Below, piece by piece: positions 6,880 through 51,401 of a stretch of DNA of 64,000 nt (position 1 is the first letter of the stretch; the number at the start of each line of letters is the position of its first letter). Below the pieces are notes generated by a model. That model searched no databases and had not been told where the DNA came from. It was given only the letters and a program-made list of their open reading frames with translations. The stretch is from Diphasiastrum complanatum (lineage: Eukaryota; Streptophyta; Lycopodiopsida; Lycopodiales; Lycopodiaceae). Location: NCBI GenBank assembly GCA_029204225.1, contig CM055092.1, positions 38,759,800 through 38,823,799 on the forward strand, given 5' to 3'. The position numbers and the translations under genes are program-made.

Positions 6880-6898
6880 ACATCAATTTCAGCATCAT

Positions 6899-6904: not shown

Positions 6905-6949
6905 AATAAGTATGATTTACGATCCAGACTAAGGTCACTGGACAACTAA

Positions 6950-7863: not shown

Positions 7864-7879
7864 ATGGCCGATAGATTGT

Positions 7880-9262: not shown

Positions 9263-9399
9263 AGTTCAATGGCTTTTCCTATGGCAAGAAATGGCATTTT
9301 GCATCATAATGTCTCAAGAAGAAGAAGGCACAAGAGAACAAGCAAAGCAACATTGCACATCAATAGGAGGAGGATGAAGAAGAATCATCCTTGTCATAG

Positions 9400-12429: not shown

Positions 12430-14165
12430 TTGTCTCTGATCTTTCTCTTGTCGATCTTCTTGGTGTAGGTGCTTGAAGTTGCTCCTCCTCAAGCATCGGC
12501 CTCACCACTTCTTAACAACATCAAGATTGATGATTCTAGATCCTACATGAGACTCCTTGATATTTGTTTCATCCAAGTTAAAATTGTGATCTTCATGAAA
12601 GATCACATCTCTACTTACAACATTCTTATCAATAGAGGGAAGATATACTTTATATGATTTCTTTAAAGATGCATATCCAACAAAAATTCCTCTAACAACA
12701 CTAGGATCATCCTTCTTCCTAGTCTCTAAAGGTACATGCACATAACATAAACAGCCAAAGATCCTAAGATGATCTAGGTGAGGCTTTTTTTAATAAAACA
12801 TCTCAAATGTTGTTCTTTCTTCTATTGCAAGATTAGAAAGTCTATTACAAAGATAATTTGCACATGTAATTGCTTCTCCCCAAAATTCTTTAGGTAGAGA
12901 TGCTTCTAGCCTAATGGCTTTTGCACATTCACACAAAGTTCTATTTTTTCTCTCAGCAACTCCATTCTGTTGAGTATAAGAACAATAAAATTCTCTTTGT
13001 ATTCTCTCTTTCTCACAAAAGTATTTAAACTTGTTAGAGATATATTCACCTCCACTATCACTTCTCAAAGCTTTCAACTTGAAAGTAAACTACTTTTCCA
13101 CATAAGCTTTGAAAGTAAGAAAAACATCATAAACCATGGCTTTAGAAGATAGCATATAGATCCAAGAATATCTTGTATAATCATCTACAAAAGAAACAAA
13201 GCAATTTGCCCCTCCTTTGCTTTTGGTTGAAGAGAAATGAACATCAGAGTGCACGAGTTCAAATGGATGTTGTGTTTTGATGCTTGATCTTGGAAAAGGT
13301 CTTCTATGTGATTTTGCCAAAACACAAGCTTTACAAGGTTGAAGCTCCTTTGACAGTGTCTTTGGTAGTCCAACAACTTTTCCTTCCTTGACCATAGATT
13401 GCATGGCTTTGAAATTGGGATGTCCCAATCTCTTATGCCACAGATCCTCCTGATGAACCTTAGTCTCATAAGCAATATCTGAAATGTTAGCACTCTCCCT
13501 AGAATCTAGTTTGTACAACTTTCCAATTCTAGATCCTCTAGCAATAACTTCATTTTTTCTTGAGATTATACATTTGTCAACATTTAAATTGACATCCAAT
13601 CCACTATCAAACAACTGTCCTACACTAATGAGATTCTTGGTTAGTCTAGGTACATAAAGTACATCATGCAAACAAAAAGATTTTGATGATGATGCATGCA
13701 GTGGAATACTACCTATTCCTTCAATTCCACACTCTACATCATTAGCAGTATAGATTGATCTTTTTGCATCTAGATATGGCTTGAGACTTGTGAAAGAGTT
13801 TTTAGAACTAGACATATGGGAGCTAGCCCCACTATCTATCCACCAGATTTCTTCATTCTTGAAAGGAAAAGATGAAACACTAGACATCATTAAAGAATCC
13901 TCTCTTTCACTCTCAACACCCTCACACTCTTCCTCATTAGTAAGGTTAGCTTGCTTGGATTGGTTCTTCTTCTTGAAACAGTTTGATGCATAGTGGCCTT
14001 TCTTGCCACAAAAGAAACACTTGATCTTTGATAGCTTCTTCTTGCCACTAGATGCAACTTGTGAGGTTTGATCCTCATTGCTTCTTTGGCTTTGTCCTTC
14101 TTGAAGTGTTGTTGACCTTTGCCCTTGCCTCTTGACTTGTCCTTTGTGAAGATTGCTTTGTCATC
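12430..14165 (-). pseudogene. Copia nucleocapsid-protease-integrase fragment
   Basis: In order on the minus strand: CCHC knuckle CFFCGKKGHYASNC (about 14,020), a Glu/Ser-rich linker, protease WWIDSGASSHM (13,840), VPRLTKNLISVGQL, the pre-integrase domain LWHKRLGHPN with C-x2-C, and the integrase core with DVHFSS, FVSFVDDYTRYSW, SDSGGEY and QNGVAERKNRTL. So the D-D-E residues are visible. One stop near 13,088 and one frameshift near 12,760 break it. Reading ends near 12,430 in a basic segment just before reverse transcriptase, which is absent. Relatively well preserved, but both ends are truncated. Confidence 0.85.
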
Positions 14166-14582
14166 TCAAATTGTACAAATCATCATGCATGTGTCCAATT
14201 CACTATGTGCATGCCTTGCATGTTAATATGGAAACACGATGACATTTGTTTTGGGACTTTGACCTGAAAAAGAGTAATCTTTTTTGGTGGTTTTTAATGG
14301 TCCTAGTTTTAGGCCAAAATCATGGATTTTTTTAATAAATCTCTAAATTTTGTTTTTAAAAAAAGCCAAAAAATGCATATTTCAAATAAAGAACTACAAG
14401 TTTTTTGTTCCAAACTTCATAAAACCATCATAATTACAAAAGAGATAATAATTCAAGAGAACAAATGATTTTTGAAACTCAAAATCCGATTGAAATACAA
14501 AATAACTTAAATTATTAAGTTTTTTTGTACATTTTCTAAGGATTTTTCACTAATGCCTCTCAATTTAGAACTAGATATATTC
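14166..14582. other. AT-rich non-coding spacer
   Basis: Sequence between the copia junction (about 14,165) and the stop codon of the DUF7869-type gene. Poly(A)/poly(T) runs, no ORF of note, no terminal inverted repeat found. It may include the 3' UTR of the neighbouring gene. Confidence 0.45.
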
Positions 14583-17500
14583 TCAACACTCGTTTTCAGC
14601 TGATGAAGTGGAAGACCCGTCTTCTTCATCAGAGTCAACTGGCATGTCTTCCTCAGAATCCACGTCTAATGTTGACAAAAAACCTTGTAAATCAGCTTTT
14701 CTCTATTGATGACGAGTGGAGGATGATGGTTTTTCAAGTAATCCAAGTCGTTCTTTCGTAGATGATTGGTCATTGTTAATTCAAAATTAAATGCCAAAAC
14801 ATCTACATCCTGTAGATTCAAATCGTCAACTCTTGGTTGATTTTTTGGCAATCTCTTTCTCTTGCCCTTTGGATCTACTTGCAACATTTCGAGTTTGTAC
14901 CTTCCCAAAAAAGCATTTGTTGAAGTGGTGCGCAACCAATGGACACGTAGTACTTTTGTTTGATTGCTATTTTAAATAAAACCAAGTACTTTGGCAATCC
15001 AAAATGGATGTCCTTCATTGTTTTCTGAAGCTAGAAGTGCAACAAGGCTTCCAATTTGGATTTCATTCAAATCACCGCACCATTTCATTTTTGTAGCTTT
15101 TACACTTTGCCTATTCTTCCTTGAGCCCACATTAATTTCACGTTCCTTATCTTGCACAAGTTGCATAAAATCATTATCTCGAGGAAGATCTGAAGGTTCG
15201 AAAGTCGTAGTTGATGTTCCTAATTTATGAGGCCAATGAAATTCGTCAGTTGTTGATGTATGTTCAAGCATTAGAGGAGTTTTGATTTCCAAAAAGACCC
15301 TTTAAGAATTCGTACAAGATGCTTTTTTTATTATCAAAATATTATAACACTAATACTTTTGACTTGCCATAACGTTTTAATCGTAGCTCATAAGTATATC
15401 ATCTAACATTCATTGGAAAGCCCTTGTTGAGCGCTTTTCAATGCACCAAACTTCGCTAAATTCGGACTTACCACTAAAATGTTATGCCATTTTTAGTATA
15501 GAATCAAAAAGTTACGTTACGTAGAATTCAAATTTGAGTGTTTTGATTGGTTCATAAGTCCATCCACCAATGTTGATCAAACTCATCAAAAAAATGATAA
15601 GCTGCTTGAATACTTTATTCCAAAAAATTTAACGAGGCAAATGGATCTATCTGATGATGTTCTCTTTGCGCCTTTTGTTCTTCTAACAAGGACTTCAAGG
15701 GAGACAACACAGCAATCTTGATTTGAGTCGATGGAATGTTAAGCAAAAATCGAACTCCTTCAAGAGGTAGCCACGAAACTGAATTTGAAAATAGTTTGCC
15801 CCATAATAATACTATGTCTGATTCGTTACATTTGATTTTAAACTGGTGCTGAAAGCTAATAACATTAATATTAGCTACGCATCGCTCTGTTTCATTGGAC
15901 GCCTTAACATAATCACGAAAATCATATGTGTGTCTGATTAATGACACATTTGGCTTTGGCACATACAATTCCTCAACAATGCTTTGAAGCACTGATAATG
16001 AAAATGCTTTCTTGCGTCTCAACCTCTTAGAAAAGCAACTAAACATTTGATCAATTTGATTGTGGGTATGTCCTACCAACAAAAATCCTATTTTTACTTT
16101 TTTGAAAAAAACATTTCTCCACAAACATAGACAAGTATGCCAAAACAGTTTGATTTTTATTTTCCCTAGTAGTGTTGTCAAGCTGCAAATAAAGTATTTC
16201 TGGAAGATTTTCACCAAATTCGCAAATTATCTTATGTACAATGGTGATCGTCAAATTTGGATCATTTCGAACATTGGGATCATTAAAAAAGACCTTGGAC
16301 TCCAAAGTGCCATTAAACACAAGTGCTCCAACGAGATGAACCTGAATAAAATCTGCCTCGTTCAAATTTTTGGGCACTCTGACAAAATGAGACAACATTG
16401 TTTTCTTCTGATCCATGCCACCAATAACAAGTCCCAGATATTTTTGTGGACATTCCAAACATTTCTTTCGATGCTTGGCCAACTTTTGTCTTTCAACCAT
16501 TTCTTGATCTATATGCAATTGAAGAGCTTTTCTAGCATCCACTGAAAATACAATGATTCACTTATTTACTATAATAAAGATTATACCATAATGGTGTTCA
16601 AAAACACTGCAACATAAGTATTCTCAAAACAGAAAGTATTAAAATGAATTACAAATGTGATTAATATTTACCTGTATCGTCATTGGTGTTTGCAAGCTGT
16701 TTTGCAGACTTTAATAACTCGCAAGTGGAGCATATTGTCATTCATGATTTTTTGGAAATCTTTACCAGTCCAAAATCTCTTTTCCAAATTCTAAGAAAAT
16801 ATGAGTAACTCAAATAGGGAACATTTTTTGTTTTTGCAAACTCTTTGTACATAAAAAATATTTCTAATTTTGTAAATTTATATGACAAGTGGAAATATAA
16901 GAAATTAGGCAATTTCTCTCCGTGCACATCTATGAGATGCTTTAGCCAAGCAGTTGTATTTAAAACATCTGGAGAAACAGTTCAACCCTGTAAGGATCCC
17001 TGTAATGTTGGGTCTTTTTGAAGTCGTGAAGGGATTCGTTGAAGCCGTGAGTTTTCGATTGCGTGAACTGCTTTGTAAGTTTTGCGACAAACCTCCAAAG
17101 CATTTAAAAAATACGAAAATGATTTTTTGTCCGGCCTCACTGTTGTACACAAATAGTAATTTCTCTTATCCTTACTTCGTAAAAAGAAGTTTGATCTTAA
17201 TTCTTCGATTTCTCTGATACTCAGCTTTGCAAACAATAGGATGAGCAGCAAATAATATTCCATACGTTTCGAATCTCAGATTTTGTAATCAATTGTTTTT
17301 GACAATTCGTTAAATGAGGTGAGGATCTCAAGTCTCTCTTGTATTTTTCTTTTTGTTTGGAGTTTGATCTATAAATTGAACCTATGGCACTAGTAGGTGC
17401 TTGAACTGGTTGAGAAGGTGTTGGAATTTCATGACTGGGAATTTTGGCTCCAAGCCCAGGATGTTCTGGACCCTCAGAAGGCTCTAAATTTTCAATGAAT

Positions 17501-17966
17501 ATAACCCTTTTAGATTTAACATGATGAACATCACTTTGAGAAGGTCTCCTACGAACATGAGAAAAGCTTGAACGTCGCGGATCAACAGACTTACGTGGAT
17601 CTGTTGATTTACTATAATCAGTACTGAGTGAATTGAAGTTTTTGACTCATCACTCAATGATTCAACTTATTCAAAAGAACAATATTCTAGTTGTGCCGAG
17701 CCTGTATCTGAAGAGGGGGACGAGGTCGAATGATTTGATACAACCTGAGTTACAGACATCATTTCTTGAAAAGTACTTGCTTGAGGAATAACAGATGATG
17801 AACGGGTAAATGATGACGATGTCACATCGTTTACCAAAATATGTTCAAATTCAGGAGTGGCTTTATCAAAAAAGCTTTCATTGGGAATGTCAGATGAAGA
17901 TGTTGCACTTGTTGCAACATATTGAGTTACAACTACTGGAATAGAAGAGGTAGAACTACTTGACAT
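14583..17966 (-). pseudogene. Transposase-like gene, DUF7869-type family, lightly damaged
   Basis: Minus strand. A Ser-rich start (17,966) is followed by an ATG-less open stretch 17,645-17,230 with Arg/Ser-rich and Pro-rich segments. Next come RNYYLCTTVRPDKKSFSYFL (about 17,170), FLRIWKRDFGLVKI, a Cys pair (CSTCELL), and a clean intron (GT at 16,671-16,670, AG at 16,543-16,542). The RNase H-like core is 16,541-15,615: YLGLVIGGMDQKK, LQLDNTTRENKN and VGHTHNQIDQMFSCFSKRL. The C-terminal part has IGSLVALLASEN, HPFWIAKVL (about 15,000) and an acidic tail ending at 14,583. D..., DN-x2-xEN and GHTH-x2-D are the conserved acidic/His motifs. Lesions: one extra T near 16,105, frameshifts near 17,230 and 14,695, and stops near 16,735 and 15,615. 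Length, about 850 residues, suits a complete protein. I assign the family from memory as DUF7869; activity as a transposase is inference. Confidence 0.65.
15355..15500 (-). repeat. About 140-bp dispersed repeat
   Basis: Recognisable, inverted, as the unit occurring twice in tandem at 46,555-46,880 (words such as AAAATGACATAACTTTTTAG and TTATGGCAAG). Here it falls between the two coding stretches of the DUF7869-type gene, within a likely intron, so it may be part of an unrelated insertion. Confidence 0.6.
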
Positions 17967-17996
17967 CGTAACCTCAAGAAAAAATTAACTACGTAC

Positions 17997-18100
17997 TTAT
18001 GCTAAGCATAGAACCGTTCAAATAGTTAACACCACACTAAATGTGTTCCTCAAACATAACTGCAACCTATGCTGGTCATAGAACAAATAAAAACCTATGC
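17997..18100. other. Palindromic motif CTATGCTAAGCATAG, cluster 1
   Basis: Just upstream of the DUF7869-type start are TTATGCTAAGCATAG (about 17,998), CTATGCTGGTCATAG (about 18,067) and a half-site CTATGCGAAC (about 18,095). Each is followed by AAC. Similar sites occur inside the methyltransferase pseudogene (37,474-37,630). Confidence 0.5.
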
Positions 18101-19026
18101 GAACTTCTTAGTTTTTCAGAATTTCAGTTTCTCAGTGTCTTAGAATCTCAGTTTCCCAATTTCTCAATATTCTTAATACAACGATTACAAATCATCAAAA
18201 AAGTAATCTTCAGGACGCATCTCTGAAAATTCATCATCCAATATGGAAGATATTTCCTGCAAACAAAAAAACAATTGCAAAATTATAATTAGATAGAGAT
18301 CAGTTCTTATTGGTGAAAACTTATTGATGAATTATATCTGTCACAAAACACAACATCAATCGCTGTGAAGGGTCAAGCACAACTTGCATTCATAACTACA
18401 CATTTACCAACCAGTTAAAAGATCTATCTATCTTAATATGTGCATGCTCATGTGCACACACATGTATTATAACATTGACAAAAATGTCAATTCAAAGCCA
18501 GTTGTTTCATGAGTTGGCAAAAAATCAGCGCTTCAAAGAAGTCGTACAACAATAAATCAATTAATATAGATATCATCAAATTAGTTTGTCAAAAGAATAA
18601 AAAATAGAAATAGGGTGTATCTAAATTAAGATAGTAGATGGATTTGTAGGCTGATAAGAATTCAATGCTTTGAACTATTAAGAAAATGATATAAAAAACG
18701 TCACATCAGAATATAGTACTTGTTTTTCTGATAATTGCATGGAGAAAGCAAGCCATTAACAAGATGCCTCTCGCGGGATCTCATGGTTACAAATATCACT
18801 ACATTCATTTGCACAATAAACAACATTAATACCACTTCACAACAAGTACTATTTTTGCGAGACATTTATTGATCCTTGAGAGATCCACAAGATTGAATTT
18901 TGCTTCGTCTGATGCCTTGCAATTTCCAAAACCATTGCCAAAGGACTCGTTTATGAAGTTGAGATATGCACTTGGTGTTGTAGATAGATTTATTCTAGAT
19001 TTTCCAAACTAGATTTTGAGGAGGAA

Positions 19027-28075: not shown

Positions 28076-28911
28076 TGTTGAAATTGTCAAATTCTAGCTT
28101 TTGATCTATGATTATTTCACATACATTGATACCACACGTGTGGAGACTATTCCCACATGTGGATGATAGTATTGAATGCATTTATTTTTAGTTAGATAGA
28201 AAAAGCTTGATTGACACTAGTGAAACGCTAGTCAAGTAGGATATTGCCATTTAGCACCATTTTACTAGTTGATCAAGCATTCCCATGTGAATAGTGGATG
28301 GTTCCCATGTGTGAGAGGTTGTTCCCACGTGTGTACATATCTGGAAAATGTAAATAGCTTATCATGGGAGTTGATTTTGTAAGTTCCTAAAAGTTACAAA
28401 AATTACTTCAAATCAAGGAAAATCATGGTGAGGCAATGGCATCAAGTTAGGAATCAAAGAGGTGGGTGCTTATCTAGTAGTGATTGGTGGAGCTGAAGTG
28501 ATGTGGCATTTCCCACAACATGCTGAATCAACATATCAAGTTGAAATGTACTTGATCTATAAATAGATCATTATTGTGAATATTAAATTTGATAAGAGAT
28601 CTTGATTTTGTGGCAAATCCATGTTATTTTCACTATTTGTGTTGTGATCTTTTGCATTGAATGATATCCATAGGTAATTTACTTCACAATCTATCCACTT
28701 TTTGTACAGAGATAGGCTTTGACATGTGTGCGGCTACTCATCCATTAGTTTGATCAATTTACATCATGTTGTTACTAGTTAAGTGCATAAAATTGATCTA
28801 GATCAAGATCTAAACATTGGATTTGTGGATGATCAATCTAACTAGCATCCAACACCTCTTGTAAATCGATTGTAGATCCATTCTTGGTCCTAAATTCAGA
28901 AGTTTTCAACA
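28076..28911 (+). mobile_element. Copia family-A LTR, copy 3
   Basis: 836 bp. TGTTGAAATT start after GATTTTGAGGAGGAA; ends TTTTCAACA. Carries a small insertion (TTTGCATTGAATGATATCC region, about 28,645) relative to copies 1 and 2, shared with the 54-56 kb copies, so copies 3-5 form a subgroup. Confidence 0.85.
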
Positions 28912-29937
28912 ATGACCAAATGTGAGAGCACCATAGAATTGCCATCTTCTTCTATAGATGCAATTTGTGCATATGGAGGAAAAATTGCATGTCATTTTAG
29001 ACCTTGTTTTTTTATTTTTTCGAAAGAATTTTAAAATTTTCTATAGTCATAAAAGCCCTTGATTTCCATCTTTTACAAAATCTTACTAAACTATGGAAAT
29101 TTGGATTGGGTGGATACAAATCACCAGTAACTATCCAAAGATCAATATTTCATCTATTTTCTAACCTCCAAGAGTTCATGTCATGTCTATACCCATGCAG
29201 CCATGGTTGTAAGATATTATAGATCTTAGTTTACATGCATATGATACTTGGTTGCCATTCTCATCAAGAATTTGAGGGTTGACTATCAACACAAATCATA
29301 TGGAAAATTCTAAAGCAATCCAATGGCTAGATGTTTATTTTATGAAAAGTGAAGAGTGAAGTACACGTGTTTGATGTTTGAAAAGTGAAATAGAAATGTT
29401 TGATGTTTGAAAAGTAAAATAATGGTATTTTAGAAAAGTGAAGGTGACATAGATGTGTTTGAAGCCTACAATTGAAATAATATACATTTGAAATATAAAA
29501 TTTAAAATTTAATGATACCTTTAGCTTTATGTCATTCCTATAGTCCCATTTGAGTTAAAAGTCAACAAAGTACTCTTAGTTCTAGTTTTTCCCTAAAAGT
29601 AATCATGTACTCCAATAGAAATGGGACTACATTCAACTCTTAACTCTTGATCACCCTATGTGGTAACCCAAGGTAAAGGTGTCACATAGGACTTATTAGC
29701 AAAAAAACTATTATGATTAGCAAACTTGTTTAGGAAAGTAAAGGGCCCTCTCTGAATCCAAAAAGTGCCCTAACGTGACTAGTTAGACTCCTTTTTTTCT
29801 TTTTTCAAGATGCCCAGAATTAGGTCTTCTACAACCTTCTATATCAAGCCACTTGTCCTTTCATGATGAATTCTAGAAGTGGCTTACTCTCCAAGTTACC
29901 GAACAATTCTAGTTATTTCCCTCTTTCTCACACTTAT

Positions 29938-30073
<136 letters not shown>

Positions 30074-31954: not shown

Positions 31955-34900
31955 GTAGGCAAAGTTACAAAGTTACAAAGTTACAAAGTTACAAAGTAGG
32001 CAAAAGTAGGCAAAGACAAAGCCAAGGACAGAGAGAAAGATGGTGAAGAGGATGACTCAACTCATCCTTCTACTTCCAAGACCAAGAAGAAGAAGGTAAA
32101 GTGTTTCTTTTGTGGCAAGAAGGGGCACTATGCTTCTAATTGCTTCAAAAAAAAAAAATCAACTCAAACAAGCAAATCTCTCTAATGAAAAAGAAGAAGA
32201 TTTTATTGCAAGTGATGGAAAAGGATCACTCATGGTGTCAAGCTTTTCTTCAACACCCTTCAAGAAAAATGGAGCATGGTACATCGATAGTGGACCTCTT
32301 CACATATGTGTTGTTCAAAGGACTCTTTTGACTCTATTGTACCTTATAGAGGACTTAAAAGATCTATTTATACTGCAAATGATCATGAATGCTCTATTGA
32401 ATGAATTGGCAACATTCCATTAAAACTTGCTTCTTCTAAAATTCTATCACTTTCCAATGTTCTTTTTGTTCCTAAGCTTACAAAGAACTTGATAAGTGTT
32501 GGAAAGTTTCTTGATTGTGGTTGTGATGTATTCAAATACTTGCTTTATCAAGAAAGATCATGAGATCCTAGCTAATGGATTTAGATATGATGGAATCCTC
32601 AAGTTAAATTTTTATGAGAATGCAAACTTTTGTGAAATTGCTCTTATGTCTAAGGAGGAGTTATGGCATAGAAGGTTGGGGCATCCTAATTGTAAGTCTA
32701 TGCTTTCTATGATCAAGAATGATAAGGCTATTGGCCTTCCAAGATCACTTTCCAAGGATATCAAGCCTTGTGAGGCTTGTGCTATTGCAAAATCACATAG
32801 AAAGCCATATCAAAAGTCTTCTATTAAGACTTCTCATCCTTTGGAATTAATTAACTCGGATGTTCATTTTTCTTCCTCAAAAAGTATTGGTGGTGCAACT
32901 TGTTTTGTTACCTTCATTGATGATTTTACAGGATATACTTGGTTGTACCTACTTTCTTCAAAAGCTATGGTATTTTATCACTTCCTAGTCTTCAAAGCTT
33001 ATGTTGAGAAATAGTTTTCTTTCAAAGTTAAAGCTTTAAGACGTGATGGAGGAGGTGAATACATCTCCAACAAGTTCTATGATTATTGTGAGGTTGAAGG
33101 GATTAAAAGAGAGTTTTCTTGTGCTTATTCTCCATCTCAAAATGGAGTTGCTGAAAGAAAAAATTGATCTCTAAGTGAATGTGCTAAAGCAATCCGAGCT
33201 GAAGCTTCTTTGCCTATTGAATATTGGGGAGAAGCAATTAATTGTGCAATAGATTACCTCACGATGCACTTGCAGGAAGATCACCATATGAAGTCTTGTT
33301 TAAGAAGAAATATAAGGTTGATCACCTTAGAGTTTTGGGATGTGCTTGCTTTGTTCATGTACCCTTGGAAACAAGGAAAAGAAATGATCCAAATTCAGTC
33401 AAAGGGATCATGGTTGGACAAAAAGGCTTGCAAAATTTATGTTCCCTGTACCTCAGTTACAATTGAGAGTAGGGATGTTATTTTCCATGAGAATAAAAAA
33501 TACATCTTTGATGAGGCCGAGATCAAAGATTCTCAAAAGGATTCTCCTATCATCACCCTTGAAGATTATCTGGGCCGAGAATTGAGGAGGAGTCACCCCG
33601 AATTTTTTCACCAAGGAGATCACAAAGAGAAAGATCCGAGCCTAAGAGGCTTACATATGGAGATAAAGGCAAGCGGGTGGAACTCAACTCCACTAATTAT
33701 GCTTATTTTGTTTCACATGAGGAGCCAAAGGATATATAAGATGCACTCAACTCAAGAGAATGGTTTCTTGCCATGAAGGACGAATATGATGCATAGATTG
33801 CCAATAAGTCATGGGAGCTTGTGGATCTTCGGTTTTTTGAGTCAAATATAATCAAGATGGCACGATCGACAAGTACAAGGCAGGACTTTGTTTTGCTCAA
33901 GTTTATGGACTTGATTATCAGGAGACTTTTTCTCCAGTTGCAAAGATGATATCAACTAGAATCATTATTTCTATTGCTTGTTTTTTCAAATGACAAGTTT
34001 TTCAACTAGATGTCTCAAATGCATTTTTTAATGGATATATAGAAGAGGATATTTATATGGATCAACCTCTTGGGTCCATCCAAGACAAGACCAAAATTTT
34101 TTTTCTTCAAAAGTCTCTATGGACTAAAGCAAGCTCCAAGATCGTGGTATTCTCGACTTAACACTTTTTTTGATTCACTAGGATTTGATCTTAGTAACTA
34201 TGATCCTTCCTTGTATGTCAAGTTTTATGATGGAGATATTGTCATTCTTCTCATTTATGTTGATGATATTATCCTAACAGGAAGTCGTATCAAGTTAGTT
34301 GAAGAAACCAAAATAATTGCACTTGGAAAAGAATTCAAGATGCAAGATCTTGGAAAATTACATTAAATATTAGGATTAGAGATTGACTTCCACAATGATA
34401 TAGCTTTTATTTGTCAATCCAAGTATGCTCTTTCAATGTTAAAATATGCTACATCGTAAGAGTATTGATACTCCTATGGAGCAAATTGTAAAAGACCGTA
34501 ACAAAGGTGATGAAAGACCCTTCGTGGACATCACTCTTTTTAGGAGTCTTATAGGCTCCTTAATCTGGCTCACTATAACTAGGCCTGATGTAAGTTTTAG
34601 TGTCCATAAGCTGAGCCAAGCTATCCAAAATCCTACTATTCATCATTGGAAAATGGCCAAAAGGGTTTAGGTATATATCTTCAACCTATGATTTTGGTTT
34701 GTTATATAAAAGTGAAGATCTTTCCATAGTTGGCTATTCTAACTCGGATTTTGCAAGTGATAAAGTAGATCGAAAATCTACAAGTGCATATGTCGTATAT
34801 CTTGGAGGAAATTTGATATCTTGGTTTTCCAAAAAGCAAGATACCATATCACTCTCATCTTGTGAAGCTGAACATAAGACACCTACTACTACAACAAAAG

Positions 34901-35220: not shown

Positions 35221-36267
35221 TGTTGAAAATAAAAAATCATCTATCTTAACTTTAGGCTTGTCACAAAGTTTTTTCTATGTGAGTTTGTTGTTTCATATTG
35301 TAAATGCCAAATTTGGCCTAGAAGAAACTCGAGCTACATGGGTTCTTCAAGTCTAGTTGGTAGTATACAACTTGCATATAGAATGTAGACTTAGAAATGT
35401 CAATAATATGCTTGTAGAAACTCGTGGCATATCACATGCAATGGTTGTAAGTGATCCAAACATGATGACCAAAAAAAAGAGAAATGACTTGAAGACCTAT
35501 TTTTTTAAAATTATTAATTTTTTTTAAAAAGTATCCAAATTCAAAATGCTTCAAAATATATTGTAATGGTAAAAAAATGTTGTATTTTGCAAGGAAATAA
35601 TTTAAGCTACAAAAATTTGGTCAATAGATTTTTTATAAATAACTTAAATTAGCTTATACTAAATAATAATACTATTTAAAATAAAATCATTAGATACACA
35701 ACCACTAAAATACCTAAAAACTATTTTTTGCTTACTAAAAACAAAAGTTATAGTTTGTTTATTCTAGAATTTTAAAAGTTTTCTAAATTACAATTCTTGT
35801 ATTGAAAAAGATATTTTTAAAATTATGTTAAAAACCTAAATCAATATTTTTTAAAATTTTAAATTTTTGAAAATCTTTACTTACACTCACGTAAGTTTAT
35901 TGAATATCTAAACATTAAATAATTACAGATAAAATTACTTTGCAATAATCGAGATTAAACTATTTGTGATAATACCCTGAAAAAATATAATTTTTTTTGT
36001 CATTTCTTATAATTTTTGACAGTATTATTTTTACAAAAAATATTATAAAAATACATCTAAAATTAAAATACTGTAAACTTGAAAAATCATTACAATTTTA
36101 ATTTTTTGGTAATAATTATCAATGTTAGAATTTCTAAAATATTTTAAGTTTTAAATTTAAATCGTTAAAAAATAAATTTAAAAATATTAAATCAATAAGA
36201 AAGAATTCAAAACACAATACATCAAAAAATATAAACACAATTATTTTTTAAAACAAAAGAGAATTAT
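35221..36267. other. Very AT-rich non-coding stretch
   Basis: After a TGTTGAAAAT start (perhaps the first bases of a family-C 3' LTR) the sequence becomes extremely A/T-rich from about 35,500, with long A and T runs. No ORF seen. It borders the 3' end of the methyltransferase pseudogene. Confidence 0.6.
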
Positions 36268-38796
36268 TTATTTCCAAAAATCATTGATGTCATTTACATG
36301 TTTTTCTTTTGTTTTTTCTTGAGTAGCCAGTGTACTATCAAGTGACACCTCTTCTACAATTTCCTCGACTACAATTACTACATTGTAATCTTGAACCAAG
36401 ACATCAACAAATTCTCTTGTGTCGCCTACTTTTTCGCTAGAAGAAGGCTGAGGTTCTTTGGAAAAGAGAATTATTGTATCCTCGCTGTCCAAACTCTTTC
36501 CCACCTCAGATAATTCATCTGGCAAAATTGAAAGAGATTTCATTCTCATTTTTATAAAATCAACTAAATTAGTATCTAAATCTACTGCAGCAACATGTCT
36601 GCCTTTCTGAACAGCACATGCGCTCGTAGTGCCGCTACCGCTAAATAAATCTAAAACCCAATCAGCTTTAAATGATTAATTAATTGTTGTGGCTTTTGGT
36701 AGGGACAAGCCACGGAACCCGTCATTGGATTTTTTAATTTCTTTGTCACAATTGGATACTGGAACAAGTTTCCAAAACTTGTCAGTCCAGAAGTGTTATA
36801 ATACAGCATCGAGCATTTGTCATCCAAAGAATAATAACCGATGGTTACGTATTCTATTTCATTGCAAAGTTGAGCTCCTCCCAAGTTCCTGACATTGGGC
36901 TTGTACCTAACATGGAACATTACATGTAAAATCAGTTTAAAATTTTAATTTTAAAATAAAAAATTTAAAATAAAATTATGAATTAAATTACGAATTGATA
37001 ATTCAGGAACTTAAAAACTTACCACACAGCTTTCTCAATTCTCGCATTACAGAAAGTTAGTAGAGCTTTATGTACTGATGCTGACCGCCAAGAAGAATGA
37101 AAAATAACAACTCTCCAAATTGGAGAAGTTGTGACTTCAAGAAAGCCCTACATAAAACTATGGGTTTTATTAAATTTGAAAGGAGTATCATCATTTAATG
37201 ATTCTTTCATCTAAATTCCATATAGTATACCGATGATGCACTGTATAAGGCCTTTTTCTTAAAATTTTTGAAATTTCTCTGCAATCGCCCTCCTCAACAA
37301 AGTAAAAACATCGTTGATCATCGACACTTTTGGGAAGGTAGGTCTCTAATGGATCGTTGTCCGCAACAATCTCTCCTTGTCTCTTTTTTCTGATTTTGCC
37401 TTCAGAATATGTCTCTTGAATTGGTCTGGAAGGACTTTGTTTTTTTTGGTCTTCGGGAGACTGAAAAAAAAAAACTATGCTTAGCATGGGAGACAAAAAA
37501 TATTAAATAGAATAGGAGACTTAACTTATCCAAAAAAAAAAATTAAATAAAGAAAAAACTATGTTTAGCATAGGAGACATAGAATATAGAAAAGAAACAA
37601 TTAATAAGCACCTATGCTAAGCATGAGTGAAATAAATACCATGTCTCTAAACAATATAAAAAATGGAATCAAGACTTGATTTTGGCTGTTCAGAGAATAA
37701 AGCCTTTCGCACTCATCGAAATCTTAATAGTTTAACCCTATCACAAGGGCTTCTTGAACTTTCATAAATACTTTGTGCTTGCATTTAAAAAATATAATTG
37801 TTAAAAATCCAACCAAATTATGAAAATCATTTTATTAAAAAAGGTAACATGAAAATAAATATTTGAATTATGATTGTTACCTCTAAAATTCTTTTTCCAT
37901 TTCTGCCAGGGAAAGTTGACCATTGGCAACTCTTGAAAGAACACTTATCATTAGTTTTGAAGAGCTAATCTCTTGCATATTCTTCCACTCTGATATTCCC
38001 ATTTCAGTAGGGATTGGCTTCAGAATTTGAGTGCTCACAACTTTTTTTTTAGACTTTGAGGCATCCTGAGCAAGTTGGCTTTTTATTTGAAAAGTTTTTC
38101 ACTTATCAAAAAAATTTTCAACAAGGGTCCACATCCGAAATAAAAAAAAAATTAATTGATAAAGAATCTAATCAATATCAAAATTGAGCTCAAAATTTTA
38201 GTCTGATAAAAACAATTTAAAAAGATTATAACATATATTACGACCAGAGCATTCCATGACGAGCATAACCAACAAATTACCTGGCCACTGTGAAAAACAA
38301 GTTGAAAAAAATCATCGTATTTAGTAAGGTTCTGAGTAAGATTTTTCGAATAAAAAGACAAGCCTGTCTCTTGAGCACATAGTGTTTTCAGCTAGTTGAT
38401 TCACATCTCCTGCTTTGGAGACTCTCATGTATTCTTTGTGAAAAAAATGAATTCTTTGTATCACGATCATCTTCATCCAGTAGTCCTGATCAATATTGTG
38501 GTCCCAAGCGAATAATTTTGCTTCTTCCACTGTCAGGCCAACAAATGCAATGGCACTCACAGTTCGAAATCTTGGGATATGCGGATAATCTTGAGATAAT
38601 TGTTTTCGAGATTGTAAACTGTGTATTCCCCCAAGAACAGAAAATGATATGAATCTAATAAAAAAAAATCAAAATTTGCAACATCGTTGCATTCGTTGGG
38701 ATCAACCAAAACAACAAAGGGAGTAACTATGGCCTGTGTATAATGATCTTTAGATTTTATTTTTAAATTATGTGTATGTGTTTCATTAGGCTCTGT
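36268..38796 (-). pseudogene. ParB-like domain plus DNA methylase N-4/N-6-type methyltransferase, spliced, decayed
   Basis: Minus strand. N-terminal part (about 38,740-38,400): FVVLVDPNE, then in a second frame FSVLGGIHSLQSRKQL and AFVGLTVEEAKLFAWDHN, the GG-x-HS ... L ... v.f.Glt.eEA..la..hN pattern of ParB-like (ParB/Srx) folds. The middle part (38,100-37,880) has MGISEWKNMQEIS. Then comes an exon 37,463-37,190 after a T-rich CAG acceptor. Next is TTSPIWRVVIFHSSWRSA (about 37,130, a possible motif IV with TSPP changed to TSPI). A donor GTAAGT (about 37,022) and an acceptor TTAG (about 36,909) bound a 110-bp intron. After that come KPNVRNLGGAQLCNEIEYV, then NPMTGSVACPYQKPQQLINH and, one base out of frame, WVLDLFSGSGTTSACA (36,662-36,615), a textbook motif I (FxGxGTT) followed by GRHVAAVDLD. 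Motif IV before motif I fits the permuted (beta-type) amino-methyltransferases. Frameshifts and stops make it inactive. Domain names are recalled family patterns; whether it methylated adenine or cytosine cannot be told. Confidence 0.66.
37474..37630. other. Palindromic motif CTATGCTAAGCATAG, cluster 2
   Basis: Three near-copies in an intron of the methyltransferase pseudogene: CTATGCTTAGCATGG (37,474), CTATGTTTAGCATAG (about 37,560) and CTATGCTAAGCATGA (about 37,612), the first two followed by AGAC. See cluster 1 at 17,997. Confidence 0.5.
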
Positions 38797-39150
38797 TGAT
38801 GGCTTTGGTGTTGGATCTGTTCTGGACATAACAGGCTGTGACAATAGCTTCTGCCCAGAACTTCGTAGGTAGGTGTGCTTGATGTAGCATGGATCTGGCT
38901 GAGTTGAAAAGAATTTGATTCTTTATTCAATCTCGTTCTGTTGAGGTGAATACGAAATAGTGAACTATCTTTTGATGCCATGTTCATCAAGGAGTGCCTT
39001 CACTTTCCTAGATGTTTGTGTCTCGGCCATGGCCTTGAATCTCTTGAAGCATTCAAAGGCTTCAGATTTGTGCTTAATGAACATGACTGTAGACCACCTA
39101 GAATAATCATCTATGAAAGTGATAAAATAGACTGCATCTCCTAAGGATGG
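38797..39150 (-). pseudogene. Copia integrase fragment (family E)
   Basis: Reading from 39,150: DAVYFITFIDDYSRWSTVMF, KSEAFECFKRFKAMAE, KALLDEHGIKR, then in a shifted frame NQILFNSARSML, LPTKFWAEAIVTA and YVQNRS near 38,810. A typical copia integrase C-terminal core with a stop at about 38,920. It abuts the methyltransferase pseudogene on one side and the DUF7869-type fragment on the other, evidently an insertion or recombination scar. Confidence 0.75.
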
Positions 39151-39169
39151 ATAGATCAAGAAACAGTTG

Positions 39170-39887
39170 AAAGACAAAAGTTGGCCAAGCATCGAAAGAA
39201 TTGTTGGGAATGTCCACAAAAATATCTGGGACTTGTTATTGATGGCATGGATCAGAAGAAAACAATGTTGTCTCATTTTGTCAGAGTGCTCAAAAATTTG
39301 AACGAGGCAGATTTTATTCAGGGTCAGCTCGTTGGAGCACTTGTGTTTAATGGCACTTTGGAGTCCAAGGTTTTTTTTAATCATCCCAATGTTCGAAATG
39401 ATCCAAACTTGATGATCACCATTGTATATAAGATAATTTGTGAATTCAGTGAAAATCTTCCAGAAATACTTTATTTGTAGCTTGACAACACTATTAGGGA
39501 AAATAAAAATCAAACTGTTTTGGCATACTTGTCTATGCTAGTGGAAAAATGTTTTTTCAAAAAAGTAAAAATAGGATTTTTGTTGGTAGGACATACCCAT
39601 GATCAAATTGATCAAATGTTTTTTTGCTTTTCTAAGAGGTTGAGATGCAAGAAAGCATTTTTATTATTAGTGCTTCACAGCATTGTTGAGGAATCGTATG
39701 TGCCAAAGCCAAACGTGTCATTAATCAGACACACATATGATTTTCGTGATTATGTTAAGGCATCCAATGAAACAGAGCGATGCGTAGCTAATATTAATGA
39801 TATTAGCTTTCAGCATCAGTTTAAAATCAAATGTAATGAATCAGACATAATATTATTAAACTATTTTCAAATTCAGTTTCGTGGCTA
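39170..39887 (+). pseudogene. DUF7869-type transposase-like gene, truncated right-arm copy
   Basis: Inverted copy of about 16,490-15,775. Reads KHRKNCWECPQKYLGLVIDG, a stop where the left copy has Gln (LYL-stop-LDN), then ENKNQTVLAYL and, without the left copy's frameshift, VGHTHDQIDQMF. Cut at about 39,887 in front of a gypsy LTR piece and at 39,170 by copia integrase. The two copies repair each other's lesions, so both descend from an intact gene. Confidence 0.72.
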
Positions 39888-40140
39888 CCTCTCTGTGTTA
39901 TTCTCCCTTATCTCTGTTCTCCGCACTATTGAGTGTGAGTGATCATGAGTCTACTAGCAATCTCTAATGCCTTACATGAATTATTCTCTGATCAGATAGA
40001 CTCTCTAGCGCATTACAGTCGTTTGTTGTGTATCCGTAAATATGCTCTAGGGAACTGTCTTGAAATCATCTTATTCGTCTGTCGCGAATACTTTCTTTTT
40101 GGCACTCGAATAACGTCTACATTTGGTACAGTCTAGCACG
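39888..40140 (+). mobile_element. Ty3/gypsy LTR fragment
   Basis: Inverted match to about 11,920-11,690, the middle of the gypsy LTR. Joined directly to gag sequence at about 40,165, so the LTR end, PBS and start of gag are deleted here. Confidence 0.7.
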
Positions 40141-42265: not shown

Positions 42266-43848
42266 TCACTTGAAGAGCAGACTCCTGTTGTGCCATGCAT
42301 GAGTTGCTCCAATGCAGCGCCTGCTCGCTTCGATGTATCTACAAACTGTATGTCGATGTTCCTCCACTGCAGTCGTCGCCTTGAGCAGCTCCTCTGCCAC
42401 AGCCTCCAACTCGCTGCATTGAGCACGCAACATTTCGGTTACAACCTGCGCAGCTCTTTGGTATGAAAACGGAAGATAATGGCTGAGCAGAAACACAAGG
42501 TTGTGAACATCTCCTTTGACCAGGCATTCCTGCATACGCACATGGCAGCTCATTCAAATTTCAACACCGAGTAATTGTCAATCAGTGGGTACAGGAATCA
42601 AGCGTGATGATTATTTTTTAAGCTTTACCTTTTTGAAAGACCAAAGATCGTTGTGCCATGATAGTATGTCACGGAATATATTCATCATTGTTTGCATTTG
42701 AGGACTGCTGAAGATTTCTTCCGGTATAAGTACGCCATCGTTAAATTCTACGAATATCTGAAGCCCAGCATTAAGGTTAATCATGATAGATAAGACAACA
42801 CATCAAGCTAAGAAATAGCCTTTTCAGAACCTAGAAGATACTGTTTGATTGAGAAGTTTGAAATTTTAGGAAATAGGCTGACTGCACCGATCCTCGGATT
42901 ATAGAATCTCATGGTTACTACTGAGTATCTTGCGTAAATTCATGAAACATATACGTAAAATCCAATGAATAGTCAGCAATGGCTTACGTACCAGACAGCA
43001 TGCGCTTGCTCCAGCGTCTCTCCGAATCAGGACATATTCATTTCTCTGTTTTGGATCTGAATGAGACTGGCTATCAGGAACTTTTGATAGAACCGGGCTA
43101 GTCGAAGGCAAGAGTCGCGGTGCATTGATGCTACGGCTGCAACCCAAAAGTCACGAAAACAGGAGCCTATTGGGGGTAGTTTCCCAGCGTCAACTGTCAG
43201 AATCAGAAAAATCAACACGATCAGTCAACTTAACGCAACCAAGGATGGCAGATATATGTGCCTGCATACATGTGCATCTTCTCGGAAATTCTCCTAAAGA
43301 ACACTAGATAGAAAACAAGTCGTTGGGCTTACTTTCGCAGGGATTAGGATGGCTATCTTTGACGTTGTATGGCTCGTCAGGGAAGAGATTTTCAATAGTT
43401 TCACGCCAATCAGTTGAAAAAGTATCTAAAATCTCCGTTACTGATTGAATTTTAGGAAAAGTTGAAGAGAAACGGTCGTCTCCCAAGGTCTTTCAAGTTT
43501 AGTGTCGTCCATTATCTCGTCAACCACATACGTAACTATCAAGAACTTAGAGAACAATTCCAACCTCTCTGCTGAAGTGTCTGGAAACATTCGAGCTGCA
43601 AATTCTGGACTATGCAGTAGTTTTGTAAACTTGTCAGGGTCGAAGACCTTGTCCACAGAATGATAGAGAAGCCATTCGCGAATTGTTTTGCAAGTTTCCG
43701 CCTCCATAGAGTGGACTCTCACGGGGTAGGGTGGAATAAATTCTGGAATCGTGAAGGAGTTCATAATTGTCATTCCAGCATCACTTATATCTTGTCCTGC
43801 ACTGTCCTGTAGTGAATTCGTATGCCAAAGATTATATTGATAGGGCAT
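42266..43848 (-). pseudogene. Microbial-type terpene synthase-like gene (MTPSL), copy 2, broken
   Basis: Exons on the minus strand: 43,848-43,333, 43,192-42,992, 42,757-42,629 and 42,529-42,266, all with GT/AG borders. Exon 1 is free of the SINE and of copy 1's frameshift and reads TYVVDEIMDDTKLERPWETT. Exon 2 keeps RRDAGASACCL and the donor GTACGTAAG. Exons 3-4 give IFVEFNDGVL, NDLWSFKKE and the conserved C-terminus. Lesions: a 28-bp deletion in exon 1 (near 43,466) and about 21 bp lost in exon 2 (near 43,041, removing the equivalent of NGVIPSR). Both shift the frame. An open upstream extension to 44,001 has no similarity to synthases, so the conserved ATG at 43,848 is preferred. Catalyses, in intact relatives, metal-dependent cyclisation of prenyl diphosphates. 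Confidence 0.82.
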
Positions 43849-43913
43849 GATAGCATGCGCGACTATGCTCTTATACACAAAGATACATTGGCTGCAAGAA
43901 TAGATAGCAGTAC

Positions 43914-44145
43914 TACAACCACAATGACCAGCAATATAGTGATCGTGAATATTGTGAATACTGATCGTCAACATTGTGCAAAGTAAAATGGACAATGTCA
44001 ATTAGTCCTTGTAAATCAAAGCAAATATCGAATTAAACAAGATTATCATTATAGTCAATTCAACTGTCAAGTTTCTATTATTTTCTTCTTAACTTGAGAA
44101 GCATAGTATCTAAGCTTCTTTTACAACCACAATGACCAGCAATAT
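43914..44145. repeat. 24-bp direct repeat flanking 184 bp
   Basis: Identical 24-bp sequences (containing ACAACCACAATGACC) at 43,914-43,937 and 44,122-44,145. The left arm retains one near 1,396-1,419. It marks the join between Helitron-related sequence and the MTPSL 5' flank. Confidence 0.75.
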
Positions 44146-44149: not shown

Positions 44150-45830
44150 ACAAATGGCTATGGACCAAGAGACTATAGAGATCCTGAATTTTTTTTTGTT
44201 TATGAAGTCAATCATAACATTTTCAACGTCTTTTCATTTCTATTGAATCATCATATTCCATCAAACAACATTTGAACAAATGTTGTGCAACGCATTTTGT
44301 TAAGTTTAAGAGAAAATAATTGTGATACTACAATTTGGAAAGAACTGTACAAAAACATTTCAATTTTTAAAATCCAATATGAGCAAATCACATCATTCGA
44401 AACATACATAAAACTTATTACCAACAACGACAATCAATTGCCAATACAATGTGAGCTTTTGTTTGTTTTGGTTTTGCAAATGCATGAATTATAAGTTAGT
44501 AGTATATCACTGTGACACTGATTCAGCAACAACAATTCAAGAAATTGTGACATGCATCAATCCAATTGGAGCAACAAAAATCATCATTACACAAGCAAAT
44601 ATTGACAACAAAGCAAAAGTATATTCTTGAAAAGAATCAAGAACAACCATAGAACCGTGTATCTCATCAAACAACAAAAAATGAGAACAACCATAGAACC
44701 GCCTATCTCATCAAACAACAAAAAATGAAAGCGATACAAATGGACAGAAACAATGAAACAAAATCTACACTCTCTAGTAAATCAATTTCGCTACTTGTAA
44801 CAAATGCCAATTGTTAACAAATTTAAGCAAGTCCATCAAGACTCACAACTATCAAACAACAACATTATTTAGTACTTGAGAAAGTACATAAAAACAAATG
44901 AATATCATCAACTATTAAACGAAGTGAAACACACTATAATGAATCCACTGAGCAATTTTAGTGAGCAAAAAATGTTTGTTGAAGATTTCATACAAAAACG
45001 TGGAGGAAATTTTAAAAAAATTGCAAAGTACACAGAAAGAATTGACGATTCTCCTAAAACAAGATGCGTTTGTTTTGATAGAGAGATCAATCAATTACTT
45101 AGAAAAAATAAATTATTTGACAAAAAACGAATAACCGACATCCATGTACAAAAAATATGCAAATCTTGCAAAGCTACAATATCAAAAGAAATGTTGCCTG
45201 AATATGCATCACCAATGAAGTATTCCACCAATAAGGCATTGACCAAAGTAAATAAACTCAATGACTTAGAAGAACGCTTAGTATCACCAAGGATTGCATT
45301 CTCACAATTAAGAGATATCTCATTTGAAGGACAACTAGCCATTATCCACAATTTCACAACTGCCCAAAAAGTGATTATGAAAATTATTACAAAGCAATCG
45401 CTTCATGCGAGGGCCAAAATCCAATAGAATTGTATCAAGATACTTGTAGTGAAGAACTAGACTTTCCAACATTGTTTTATGGCCACAAAAGAAAGATGGT
45501 GATGAGCAACTAGCTCCCATAACAAAAAATTGTTGAATGGGAAGTCTTACATTACAAACACAAATTTTTCCAACACATATCCAGCATCTTCTACAAAGCA
45601 ATCAAAATATTGATACATCAAACACTATCATCGATATTGATAGGCTTGCAAAAACGTGCAGTGAAATACCATCCCACATTGAGTGCAGTAATTGTTTCTC
45701 AAGACACAAACATAGAATAAATATTGCATTCAAAAATAGGATATCAAGACTTTTCAGACATTCGAACGTCTCCATATTACAAACAACACCTTAAACCGAA
45801 CGTGTTTGCAATGATGCGTCAACTCGGCTA
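44150..45830 (+). mobile_element. Helitron remnant, right copy, reaching the helicase-like domain
   Basis: Plus-strand inverted copy of the window's first 1.4 kb plus about 200 bp more. Order: OTU-like stretch (44,160-44,520), 44-bp tandem dimer (about 44,645-44,735), DUF6570-like region (44,876-45,427), then a frame-broken stretch to DIRTSPYYKQHLKPN and NVFAMMRQLG (45,757-45,827), the conserved start of the Helitron helicase-like (Rep) domain. A stop follows and similarity ends. This continuation is the main evidence that the block is a Helitron. Confidence 0.75.
44876..45427 (+). pseudogene. Helitron protein N-terminal region (DUF6570-like), right copy
   Basis: 183 codons open. Motifs as in the left copy: REINQLLRKNK, ICKSCKATISKEMLPEYASP, LEERLVSPRIAFSQLRD. 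Ends at a TAG that is shared with the left copy, so the lesion predates the arm duplication. Confidence 0.72.
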
Positions 45831-49506: not shown

Positions 49507-50463
49507 TTAAGATGTTCTTTGAAGCTTTGGGACAAAAAGAACATTGTTGAGAAAGAGATCTTTAGAAGATGCAAGCTTCCAGGGAATAATCCCTACTCCT
49601 TCAATATTGCACTCATGCTTACTTGCAATGTATATGGTCTTCTTGACTCCATCGTAAGGCATAATAGATGAAAAAAAGTGCTTGGATCCACACATATGTG
49701 AAGATGCTCCACTATCAATATACCATGAGTCATCCTTGTTGAAGGTGGAAGAGGAGAAGCTTGATGCCATAAGAGAGCTTTCTCCATCACTTGCAATATA
49801 GTCTTCTTTCTCATTGGTGATGCTGGCTTGATTGAGTTGATTCTTCTTCTTGAAGCAATTCGTGGCATAATGGCCTTTCTTGCCACAATAAAAGCACTTG
49901 ATATTTGAAGTAGAAGAATGAGAGGTATCCTCCTCCTCCTCTCCATCTTGGTCTTTAGCTTTGTCATTAGAGAAGTGATGGTGTTGCTTCTTACTCCCCT
50001 CTTTGTGCTTGGGAGATAGAACTTTGCCACCATCATGATTGAGTGATAGCTTGTCCATCCTCAAGAGTTTGTGCTCTTGTCTTGATTCTTCAGAAATAAG
50101 CACACTTTGAAGGGCCTCCAAACTTGGTAGCTCCTCCTTAACGGCATAGGATTGGACAAGGTTGTCATATTCATCTCTCAAGCCATTGAGAATGACTTGG
50201 ACTAGCTCACTTTGATTGATTGAGTCACCAATACATGCAAGCTCCCTATGAATATCCTTGACTCTCAAAACATAATTAGATGCACTCTCATCACTCTTTT
50301 GACTACTTTGGAAGATTTGATTTCTAAGAGTGAGGAGCCTAGAGGTGTTCTTAGCCTCATAGATGGACTTGAGACAATCCCAAGATTCCTTGGATGTAGA
50401 ACAATCACCAATCTCCCTCAATATCTCATTAGAGACATTCATCTTAATGTAATGGAGAGCCAT
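49507..50463 (-). CDS. Copia Gag-protease
   Basis: 318 codons from ATG at 50,463. Residues 1-150: gag helices (WDCLKSIYEAKNTSRLLTL, YVLRVKDIHRELACIG, LVQVILNGLRDEYDNLVQS). A charged stretch with GEEEEDTSHSS follows, then the CCHC knuckle CFYCGKKGHYATNC (about 190-203). A linker leads to protease WYIDSGASSHM (about 247-257) with the catalytic D-S-G intact, and the frame ends at NVLFVPKLQRTS by a frameshift. Gag would form the virus-like particle and the protease would cleave it. The best preserved ORF in the window; start chosen as the first ATG of the open frame, some upstream gag is probably lost or lies in another frame. Confidence 0.82.
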   Translation of the reverse strand: MALHYIKMNVSNEILREIGDCSTSKESWDCLKSIYEAKNTSRLLTLRNQIFQSSQKSDESASNYVLRVKDIHRELACIGDSINQSELVQVILNGLRDEYDNLVQSYAVKEELPSLEALQSVLISEESRQEHKLLRMDKLSLNHDGGKVLSPKHKEGSKKQHHHFSNDKAKDQDGEEEEDTSHSSTSNIKCFYCGKKGHYATNCFKKKNQLNQASITNEKEDYIASDGESSLMASSFSSSTFNKDDSWYIDSGASSHMCGSKHFFSSIMPYDGVKKTIYIASKHECNIEGVGIIPWKLASSKDLFLNNVLFVPKLQRTS

Positions 50464-51401
50464 CCTAGCTCTCTTCTTGTATTTTTGTACTTCTCAAAGG
50501 ACTTGAGGCTCCTCCTCAATCCCAAGTACAATGTCCATCACATCTTGGAGTATCAAGATGGACTCCATCCTCAACTTCCATATTGAATAATTGGAAGTAG
50601 ACAATCTCTCACTTGGTTGCAACAAGTATGAACTCATTCAAGTCATGTAAAGTGGAGATAAATAAAAGTGATGAACAAAAATGTTGTTTTTCTCTCCTAT
50701 AGGATCCAATAATGGTGTGCTACCATCTCCTATGCAATATCTTGCAACAAACTGTGAGATAATTCTCACTAGCCATCTCAATCTCTCCAAAACTAGATCT
50801 ACTTCACATCAAATGATGGAGTGTGGGCAAAGTTAGGATCAAACACTCTTAGCACGCGTGAAATACACTAAGAAACCAAATTTGACTCAAATACTATGAT
50901 ATTGCATGAAACAAAATGGCTAAGATCTCAAAACAGTGCCTATATCACATACAGATGAGATTGGTAAGCATTCAACTGTGATTTTGGATCAAACAAGCAA
51001 TCTCTTGACCAAACCAAATGTGTCCACCCAAAACTAGGTGCCCTACCTAACCCTCTTAAAAAGCTTATAACTTTTAGTTGGCACAACCAAATGGAATGAA
51101 ACTAATTACATAAAAAACTAGACAAAAATAGCCTCAAAACAAGCTATCTAGCAAGATTTTTGGTTCAAGCATGAAAGAGAACTCCCAGACTGAAATTTGA
51201 AGTTCCTCACACATGTCTGAGCACCTGAACCCGTACAATACCAGGTCAGAACCAATCAATGCCCTATTGATCTCTTTTGATCCAAAATTGAAAAGGATAG
51301 CTAGGAAAATGGATCTTGACAAGTTCTAGCTCAAGATTGATGAATAGTTTTCACTTAAATGGATCAAAATGCATGGTAGCCTTAGGTAGGCTCTAATACC
51401 A
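50464..51401 (-). other. Copia family-B leader and PBS
   Basis: Between the PBS (51,401-51,389) and gag. 51,170-51,380 corresponds to 31,725-31,950 of the chimeric element in inverted orientation. No ORF of note; some 5' gag-like codons may lie near 50,470-50,600. Confidence 0.6.

Follow-up and report, generated by a model that had tools for sequence, protein, structure and literature searches.

The feature described here is a gene at 36268-38796 of a 64,000-nt stretch of the genome of the lycophyte Diphasiastrum complanatum (contig CM055092.1 of assembly GCA_029204225.1; hereafter, the window). We consider it likely that this is the dead accessory gene of a terminal inverted repeat (TIR) DNA transposon, which encodes a DUF7869 protein as its putative transposase together with a spliced protein that joins a ParB-like part to a bacterial-type DNA methylase; the ParB-like part would clamp DNA, the methylase would act on adenine, and the mark would benefit the element. 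The reading draws on the termini of the element and the duplications beside them, its copy number, its two-gene layout, the homology of the methylase, and the selection on the methylase frame. An earlier prediction, made from the letters of the window (hereafter, the original prediction), had described a spliced pseudogene with a ParB-like pattern upstream of a permuted methylase in plant DNA, and had suggested that a mobile element carried it.

The carriage by a mobile element was borne out. The carrier is a high-copy TIR DNA transposon with 4-bp target duplications and a full copy of 8.5 kb. On the basis of their methylase matches we fetched 20 copies, as 10-kb stretches each, from the 1.74 Gb genome. 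Aux/IAA genes, a family typical of land plants, are also present in that genome (38 matches of 70 scored), which supports a land-plant source. The oriented copies have a common left boundary (AACACGATGACATTTG...) and a common right boundary (...TTTTTTGGTCATCATGTT; in the window, L025, L032, L033, L034 and L035, and with one mismatch in L031). Both ends carry TIRs of 11 bp (AACAyGATGAC); no terminal match was seen beyond these first 11 bp, and when the two 150-bp ends are aligned locally, the best match falls elsewhere. Across the genome, a left-end 42-mer occurs 578 times at ≤3 mismatches and a right-end 18-mer occurs 211 times exactly, with no occurrence of the reversed control for either. 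Target duplications of 4 bp are exact in five of nine copies (GTAG, GAGC, TAGC, TTTA, and TAAT; the TTTA and TAAT copies have diverged right ends that were positioned by fuzzy match), three more show one mismatch, and one copy has no recognisable right end. The target duplication of the Sola1 superfamily is 4 bp, a size with which that of the present element agrees.

In the full copy (L032, 8496 bp, with its own reading frames interrupted), the termini and the duplication enclose two divergent genes together, DUF7869 running leftwards and the ParB-methylase gene rightwards. The rightward protein consists of an N-terminal region, a basic linker, the ParB-like part, a second linker, and the permuted methylase. 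The ParB-like part was detected in 11 of the 20 fetched copies, each time upstream on the methylase strand, and DUF7869 in seven, every time on the opposite strand and never on the same one; a part undetected in a fetched copy is missing, diverged or outside the 10-kb stretch. Genome-wide, PF01555 gave 1605 first-look candidates and the ParB-like exon (L030 version) gave 1974, and for each of them 150 of the 150 scored matched (the ParB-like exon with E below 1e-62). Judged by eye among the 150 + 150 matches listed, at least 22 of the 150 ParB-like matches have a methylase about 1-2 kb downstream on the same strand, though a few of these pairs are on small contigs that possibly repeat a chromosome. 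Also by eye, a listed methylase match in the same orientation precedes at least 15 of the 100 right ends listed, at a distance of 0.9-1.25 kb, and DUF7869 lies 1.30-1.79 kb inside at least eight of the 100 listed left ends. The motif array did not arise by chance, since many loci of the genome have the ParB-like, middle, and methylase parts in the same order and on the same strand. Between the divergent genes of L032, at about 3523-3935 of the element (L032x 4780-5192), a region of about 400 bp forms an imperfect palindrome (79% self-complementary) and possibly has a regulatory or binding role. Elsewhere, four methylase matches about 4.5 kb apart, all on the minus strand, form what appears to be a tandem array of element pieces (C22:12333634-12347569).

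The methylase reading frame seems to have been under purifying selection while the element evolved and spread. The ratio of nonsynonymous to synonymous substitution rates (dN/dS) was obtained for the 20 copies with enough methylase codons (19 fetched copies and the window copy; L036 was too short). Of the 190 pairs for the methylase exon, 187 were usable and 186 had dN/dS below 1, with a median of 0.198, compared with 0.721 and 0.947 in the two wrong frames. The case for selection is made by the deep pairs (dS, the synonymous component, above 0.35; n = 97), because their median is 0.139 in the true frame versus 0.842 (54 pairs) and 0.905 (24 pairs) in the wrong frames. The shallow pairs (n = 90) speak on the other side, since their median of 0.415 indicates that copies decay after landing. 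The pattern is that of a protein required by a transposon, constrained along the jumping lineages and decaying once landed. Among nine copies of the ParB-like exon, each of the 35 pairs has dN/dS below 1 and the median is 0.390, the wrong-frame comparison covering the methylase and DUF7869; its deep pairs (n = 7) gave 0.165, and all five of those printed involve the diverged copy L036.

The ParB label is a matter of motif order and published architecture. The N-terminal boxes of ParB proteins are, in order, PI-V, G(x)HRxxA, and L-eEa--lA--N. A corresponding order and register can be made out by eye, and the VLGGIHS...GLTVEEAKLFAWDHN pattern was indeed found upstream of the methylase in the window (38321-38668, minus strand). 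In the hhalign alignment the boxes likewise follow one another in the expected order and register, with a score that is not significant. As far as the available part of PMC12477816 describes it, the counterpart in the brown alga Ectocarpus is also ParB-like. Several results weigh against the label. No ParB family was found in the Pfam, PHROGs, and NCBIfam scans, which returned chance-level matches only, and the PF02195 profile gave no candidate genome-wide at E≤10, although it matches 11 of 14 control genomes. When the region was aligned by hhalign to nine ParB domains, its score was equalled or exceeded in 19 of 100 column shuffles; the family alignment used for this part has an effective number of sequences (Neff) of 1.5 and is too uniform for a sensitive test. 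The profile search of the PDB with this part gave one match at chance level (0.22), a single-sequence AlphaFold model of the window piece had a predicted local distance difference test (pLDDT) score of 46, and the sequence was detected in just the 11 copies given above. The ParB-like part had no match in phages at E≤10, and its best match in plasmids had an E of 1. The label of the original prediction is thus retained for the motif order and the Ectocarpus precedent, and it gained no support from Pfam, PHROGs, NCBIfam, PF02195 or a significant hhalign score. With every profile test negative, the region might instead be a DNA- or chromatin-binding domain specific to the element and with no ParB fold; given the order and register of the boxes (score not significant) and the description of the Ectocarpus counterpart (PMC12477816, available part), we regard this as somewhat unlikely.

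The methylase was matched by profiles in the window and elsewhere. The last exon of the window copy (36268-36675, minus strand) matches PF01555 with an E of 8e-8 and 32.9 bits, above the curated cut-off of 26.7, and matches DNA methyltransferases of PHROGs down to 2.6e-8; the methylase of L032 matches PF01555 at 1.5e-13 and 51.6 bits. The profile checks proposed with the original prediction therefore came out for the methylase and, with no ParB profile matching, not for the upstream part. The motif order is permuted, as had been predicted, in that the motif IV region precedes the S-adenosylmethionine (AdoMet) motif, which is largely invariant among diverged copies. By tblastn, the methylase had a distant match in a huge phage (25.6% identity, E 3e-4) and matches of 24-27% identity in the ten plasmid hits listed (best E 5e-10); for the best phage and plasmid methylases listed, identity is 24-32% across 75-97% of the query. 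Pattern-seeded scans of IMG/VR and GTDB contigs confirmed no relative at a tblastn threshold of 1e-3.

Adenine methylation is favoured as the predicted activity, with N4 of cytosine less likely, because named adenine enzymes score best against the methylase profile, PvuII scores last, and motif IV is best kept as D-x-P-Y. The profile matched 10 solved chains, including RsrI (6.7e-8), which we take to be an adenine enzyme, CcrM (2.9e-7), MboIIA (1.6e-6), and DpnA (about 2e-5), with PvuII the weakest (0.0038). The commonest motif IV is D-I-P-Y, found in six of the 13 readable fetched copies (L019, L020, L022, L024, L025, and L033), and no SPPY was found among these 13 or in the window copy. A candidate motif IV, TTSPIW, was rejected, as the reading of L032 puts it downstream of the region aligned with DPPY. 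The alternative frame with FILLGGQHQY near 37040-37160 was also rejected, the other frame being the one conserved across copies.

Two alternatives bear on the chemistry of the methylase. The product could be N4-methylcytosine, by analogy with the bdelloid N4CMT and the Marchantia DN4MT. The Pfam family spans both chemistries and the 10 profile matches include PvuII, an N4 enzyme, but it is the weakest of them while named adenine enzymes are the best, and the best-kept motif IV is D-x-P-Y as opposed to the SPPY of N4CMT (the motif being a guide, not proof). We consider an N4 product unlikely, and the enzyme does not look to be of the SPPY type of bdelloid N4CMT, which the original prediction had named as a known case. 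Of similarly low probability is that the domain was kept for another role, such as binding DNA or sensing AdoMet, and has no methylation activity. The points against an active methylase are that D-I-P-Y departs from the canonical DPPY, and that the remaining seven readable copies have other forms (DITY in two, YIPY in two, NIPY in one, and NILY in two, including L032). On the other hand, the D, P, and Y columns of L020 and L024 line up with the DPPY of bacterial and phage enzymes, and the AdoMet motif and the selected frame also argue for a methylating enzyme.

The divergent gene encodes a putative transposase. One piece of the L032 copy matches DUF7869 at 1.9e-21, and the motifs VIDGMDQ, LQLDN-RENKNQ, and GHTHDQIDQ form a pattern that would fit an RNase-H-type transposase. 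DUF7869 has 2953 candidates genome-wide (150 of the 150 scored match) and was matched in none of 14 prokaryote controls. The candidates probably represent several families of transposons, and the methylase may be lacking in some of them. By profile range, the DUF7869 matches form at least two groups (about 1-180 and 4-191). Some observations tell against the assignment. The transposase label comes from position and motif pattern, the single-sequence AlphaFold model has a pLDDT of 42, and a search for the name DUF7869 found no paper in the literature covered, subscription papers being mostly outside its scope. In a small sample, the true-frame dN/dS median is 0.669 (13 pairs) versus 0.697 and 1.016 in the wrong frames; the deep pairs gave 0.151 (n = 3).

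It is very improbable that the ParB-methylase gene belongs to a host or horizontally acquired family that sits beside DUF7869 transposons and was amplified by segmental duplication. The window is rich in large duplications, and certain pairs of copies hardly differ along several kb (L026 and L027, 98.3% identical over 7 kb), but in copies from different chromosomes, each with its own flanks, the methylase gene is enclosed by the termini and 4-bp duplications, and those of L032 bracket both genes jointly; this explanation is largely refuted because the copies have shared ends. Contamination or a lone transfer was rejected, in line with the original prediction, as the gene is spliced and has hundreds of copies.

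As a mechanism for the proposed transposon, the DUF7869 protein would cut and paste the element, the ParB-like part may bind or clamp the element's own DNA, and the methylase could then add a methyl group to adenine of that DNA (less likely to N4 of cytosine). The mark may help the element to resist silencing by blocking host silencing factors. Alternatively, it could allow the transposase to recognise its own or freshly replicated DNA, telling old from new strands. Dam methylation distinguishes old from new strands for some bacterial transposons. A functional role of N6-methyladenine (6mA) or N4-methylcytosine in plants is disputed. We put forward only tentatively, as possible and short of probable, the full version of this model, a plant transposon of a perhaps unnamed superfamily with a targeted adenine methylase that is loaded via a ParB-like clamp and writes a 6mA self-mark against silencing or for licensing transposition. 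The dN/dS values show that the methylase gene mattered to the element, and a bacterial-type methylase selected during spread offers a defined enzyme with a defined likely substrate, the element itself.

The methylase gene of the window is a copy of the transposon accessory gene, dead and rearranged, in agreement with the spliced pseudogene that had been predicted. It carries frameshifts and stops, its motif IV has decayed, and it has lost the IDIFSHP segment, which is retained elsewhere. The coding ends EKAVW and YKPNV are joined across the intron, and GT...AG is present at the equivalent place in eight of the 11 other copies printed (exceptions L024, L037, and L038; L035 was omitted from the comparison, the start of its second exon not being located), so that the predicted exon borders were also recovered. 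The original prediction located the gene correctly, but the unit exceeds 36268-38796, running from the terminus at 35459 to 38794 with more pieces at 39153-39892 and 14233-18104. Positions 1-2946 of the L032 element correspond to three pieces on the plus strand of the window (14233-15276, 15556-17311, and 18026-18104), positions 1301-2043 to 39892-39153 (minus strand), and positions 5135-8496 to 38794-35459 (minus strand). Element homology of the ParB-like region stops at 38794. The adjoining copia-like fragment is absent from the L032 and L025 element copies, and its rve match (E 0.0033, 18.1 bits) falls short of the curated cut-off of 32.6. The DUF7869 fragment beyond it matches PF25273 at 1.2e-32 and the piece preceding that fragment at 2.2e-5, below the cut-off; the DUF7869 pieces of the left part are 94% identical in DNA to the Pfam-matched fragment (39151-39892). 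The window probably contains one insertion that was afterwards duplicated and torn apart, apparently by inversion, because TGGA flanks both termini (left at 14233, right at 35459) and a copy at C1:34493488-34499936 has an identical left flank and a right flank one base off relative to the window.

Table 1 Parts of the transposon and associated features in the window.
Feature	Position	Strand	Remarks
Left part of element, opposite orientation	14233..18104	+	Starts at left terminus AACACGATGACATTTG...
DUF7869 gene pieces of left part	15615..16557	-	ORFs (open reading frames); DNA identity to 39151-39892 fragment; inside element 1092-2870
Candidate target-site duplication adjoining right terminus	35455..35458		TCCA on + strand, TGGA in element orientation
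Right terminus of transposon	35459..35476	-	AACATGATGACCAAAAAA on + strand; right end of minus-oriented element
Last exon, AdoMet-binding motif and acidic C-tail to stop codon	36268..36675	-	WVLDLFSGSGTT, GRHVAAVDLD; PF01555
Methylase middle part (YKPNVRNLGGAQLCNEIEYVTIGYYS...)	36676..36906	-	Frameshift at its end; without IDIFSHP segment
GT-AG intron, 116 nt	36907..37022	-	Borders recur in other copies
Exon with methylase motif IV region and EVTTSPIWRVVIFHSSW	37023..37460	-	Motif IV is GILYGI*
Linker exon (IKSQLAQDASKSKKK...) between ParB-like part and methylase	37883..38098	-	Lies between these two in other copies
ParB-like region (TPFVVLVDP...VLGGIHSLQSRKQL...AFVGLTVEEAKLFAWDHN)	38321..38794	-	Frameshift near 38660
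Ty1-copia-like integrase fragment, wedged in element remnant	38795..39152	-	rve, weak
DUF7869 fragment of divergent gene, putative transposase	39153..39892	+	PF25273; one in-frame TAG

Several other features were observed in the window. Duplications of 1-1.8 kb, both direct and inverted, crowd the window, and three of the pairs (1-1607 and 45551-43936; 8309-9917 and 59614-57994; 28318-30013 and 54769-53067) are 95.7-97.5% identical, hinting at a repeatedly rearranged segment. Fragments of Ty1-copia gag/pol lie at 13093-14160, 32496-33011, and 49510-50493 (Pol_BBD, gag_pre-integrs, and Retrotran_gag_2). A duplicated ORF of 184 aa (128-679, minus strand; 44873-45424, plus strand) is open in both copies and has no Pfam match at E≤0.01. 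The ORF at 43441-44001 on the minus strand (FLIVTYVVDEIMDD) resembles a microbial-type terpene synthase by eye, with no Pfam match at E≤0.01.

The comparisons with published systems that follow concern the available parts of the cited articles. The original prediction had presented a little-described system. This does not stand, as the kind is already known because Sola1-1_Ec32 of the brown alga Ectocarpus has the same arrangement, a DNA transposon with an accessory gene for a ParB-like plus N4/N6 methylase protein opposite the Sola1 transposase (PMC12477816). Similar proteins from green and red algae are cited there, including by Petroll et al. 2025. The Ectocarpus element is 21.5 kb long and belongs to a brown alga, whereas the present one is 8.5 kb long, belongs to a land plant, and has introns in the gene. 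Fusions of a ParB CTPase with an N6_N4 methylase in phages (PMC12704722) likewise join a ParB-like part to such a methylase, but they are prokaryotic or phage genes. The fungal DNA transposons with TET/JBP (PMC12730594) and the retrotransposons with DNMT or Dam (PMC5890265) are likewise mobile and carry a DNA-modifying enzyme, but the former have a dioxygenase, the latter C5-cytosine or Dam-type enzymes, and both are of other element classes. The bdelloid N4CMT and Marchantia DN4MT (PMC8885841) are likewise bacterial-type amino-methylases in eukaryotes, but they are described as host enzymes, and N4CMT has an SPPY motif and a chromodomain, unlike the D-I-P-Y commonest here. No ParB-plus-methylase transposon of a land plant was found in the literature searched, with subscription papers mostly outside its scope. 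The present analysis adds a host among the land plants, a measurement of selection, the element ends with their duplications, and the D-I-P-Y motif. The range of ParB-plus-methylase transposons, reported from algae (brown, green, and red), thereby comes to include a land plant, and both algae and land plants are hosts to mobile DNA that may mark itself by chemical modification.

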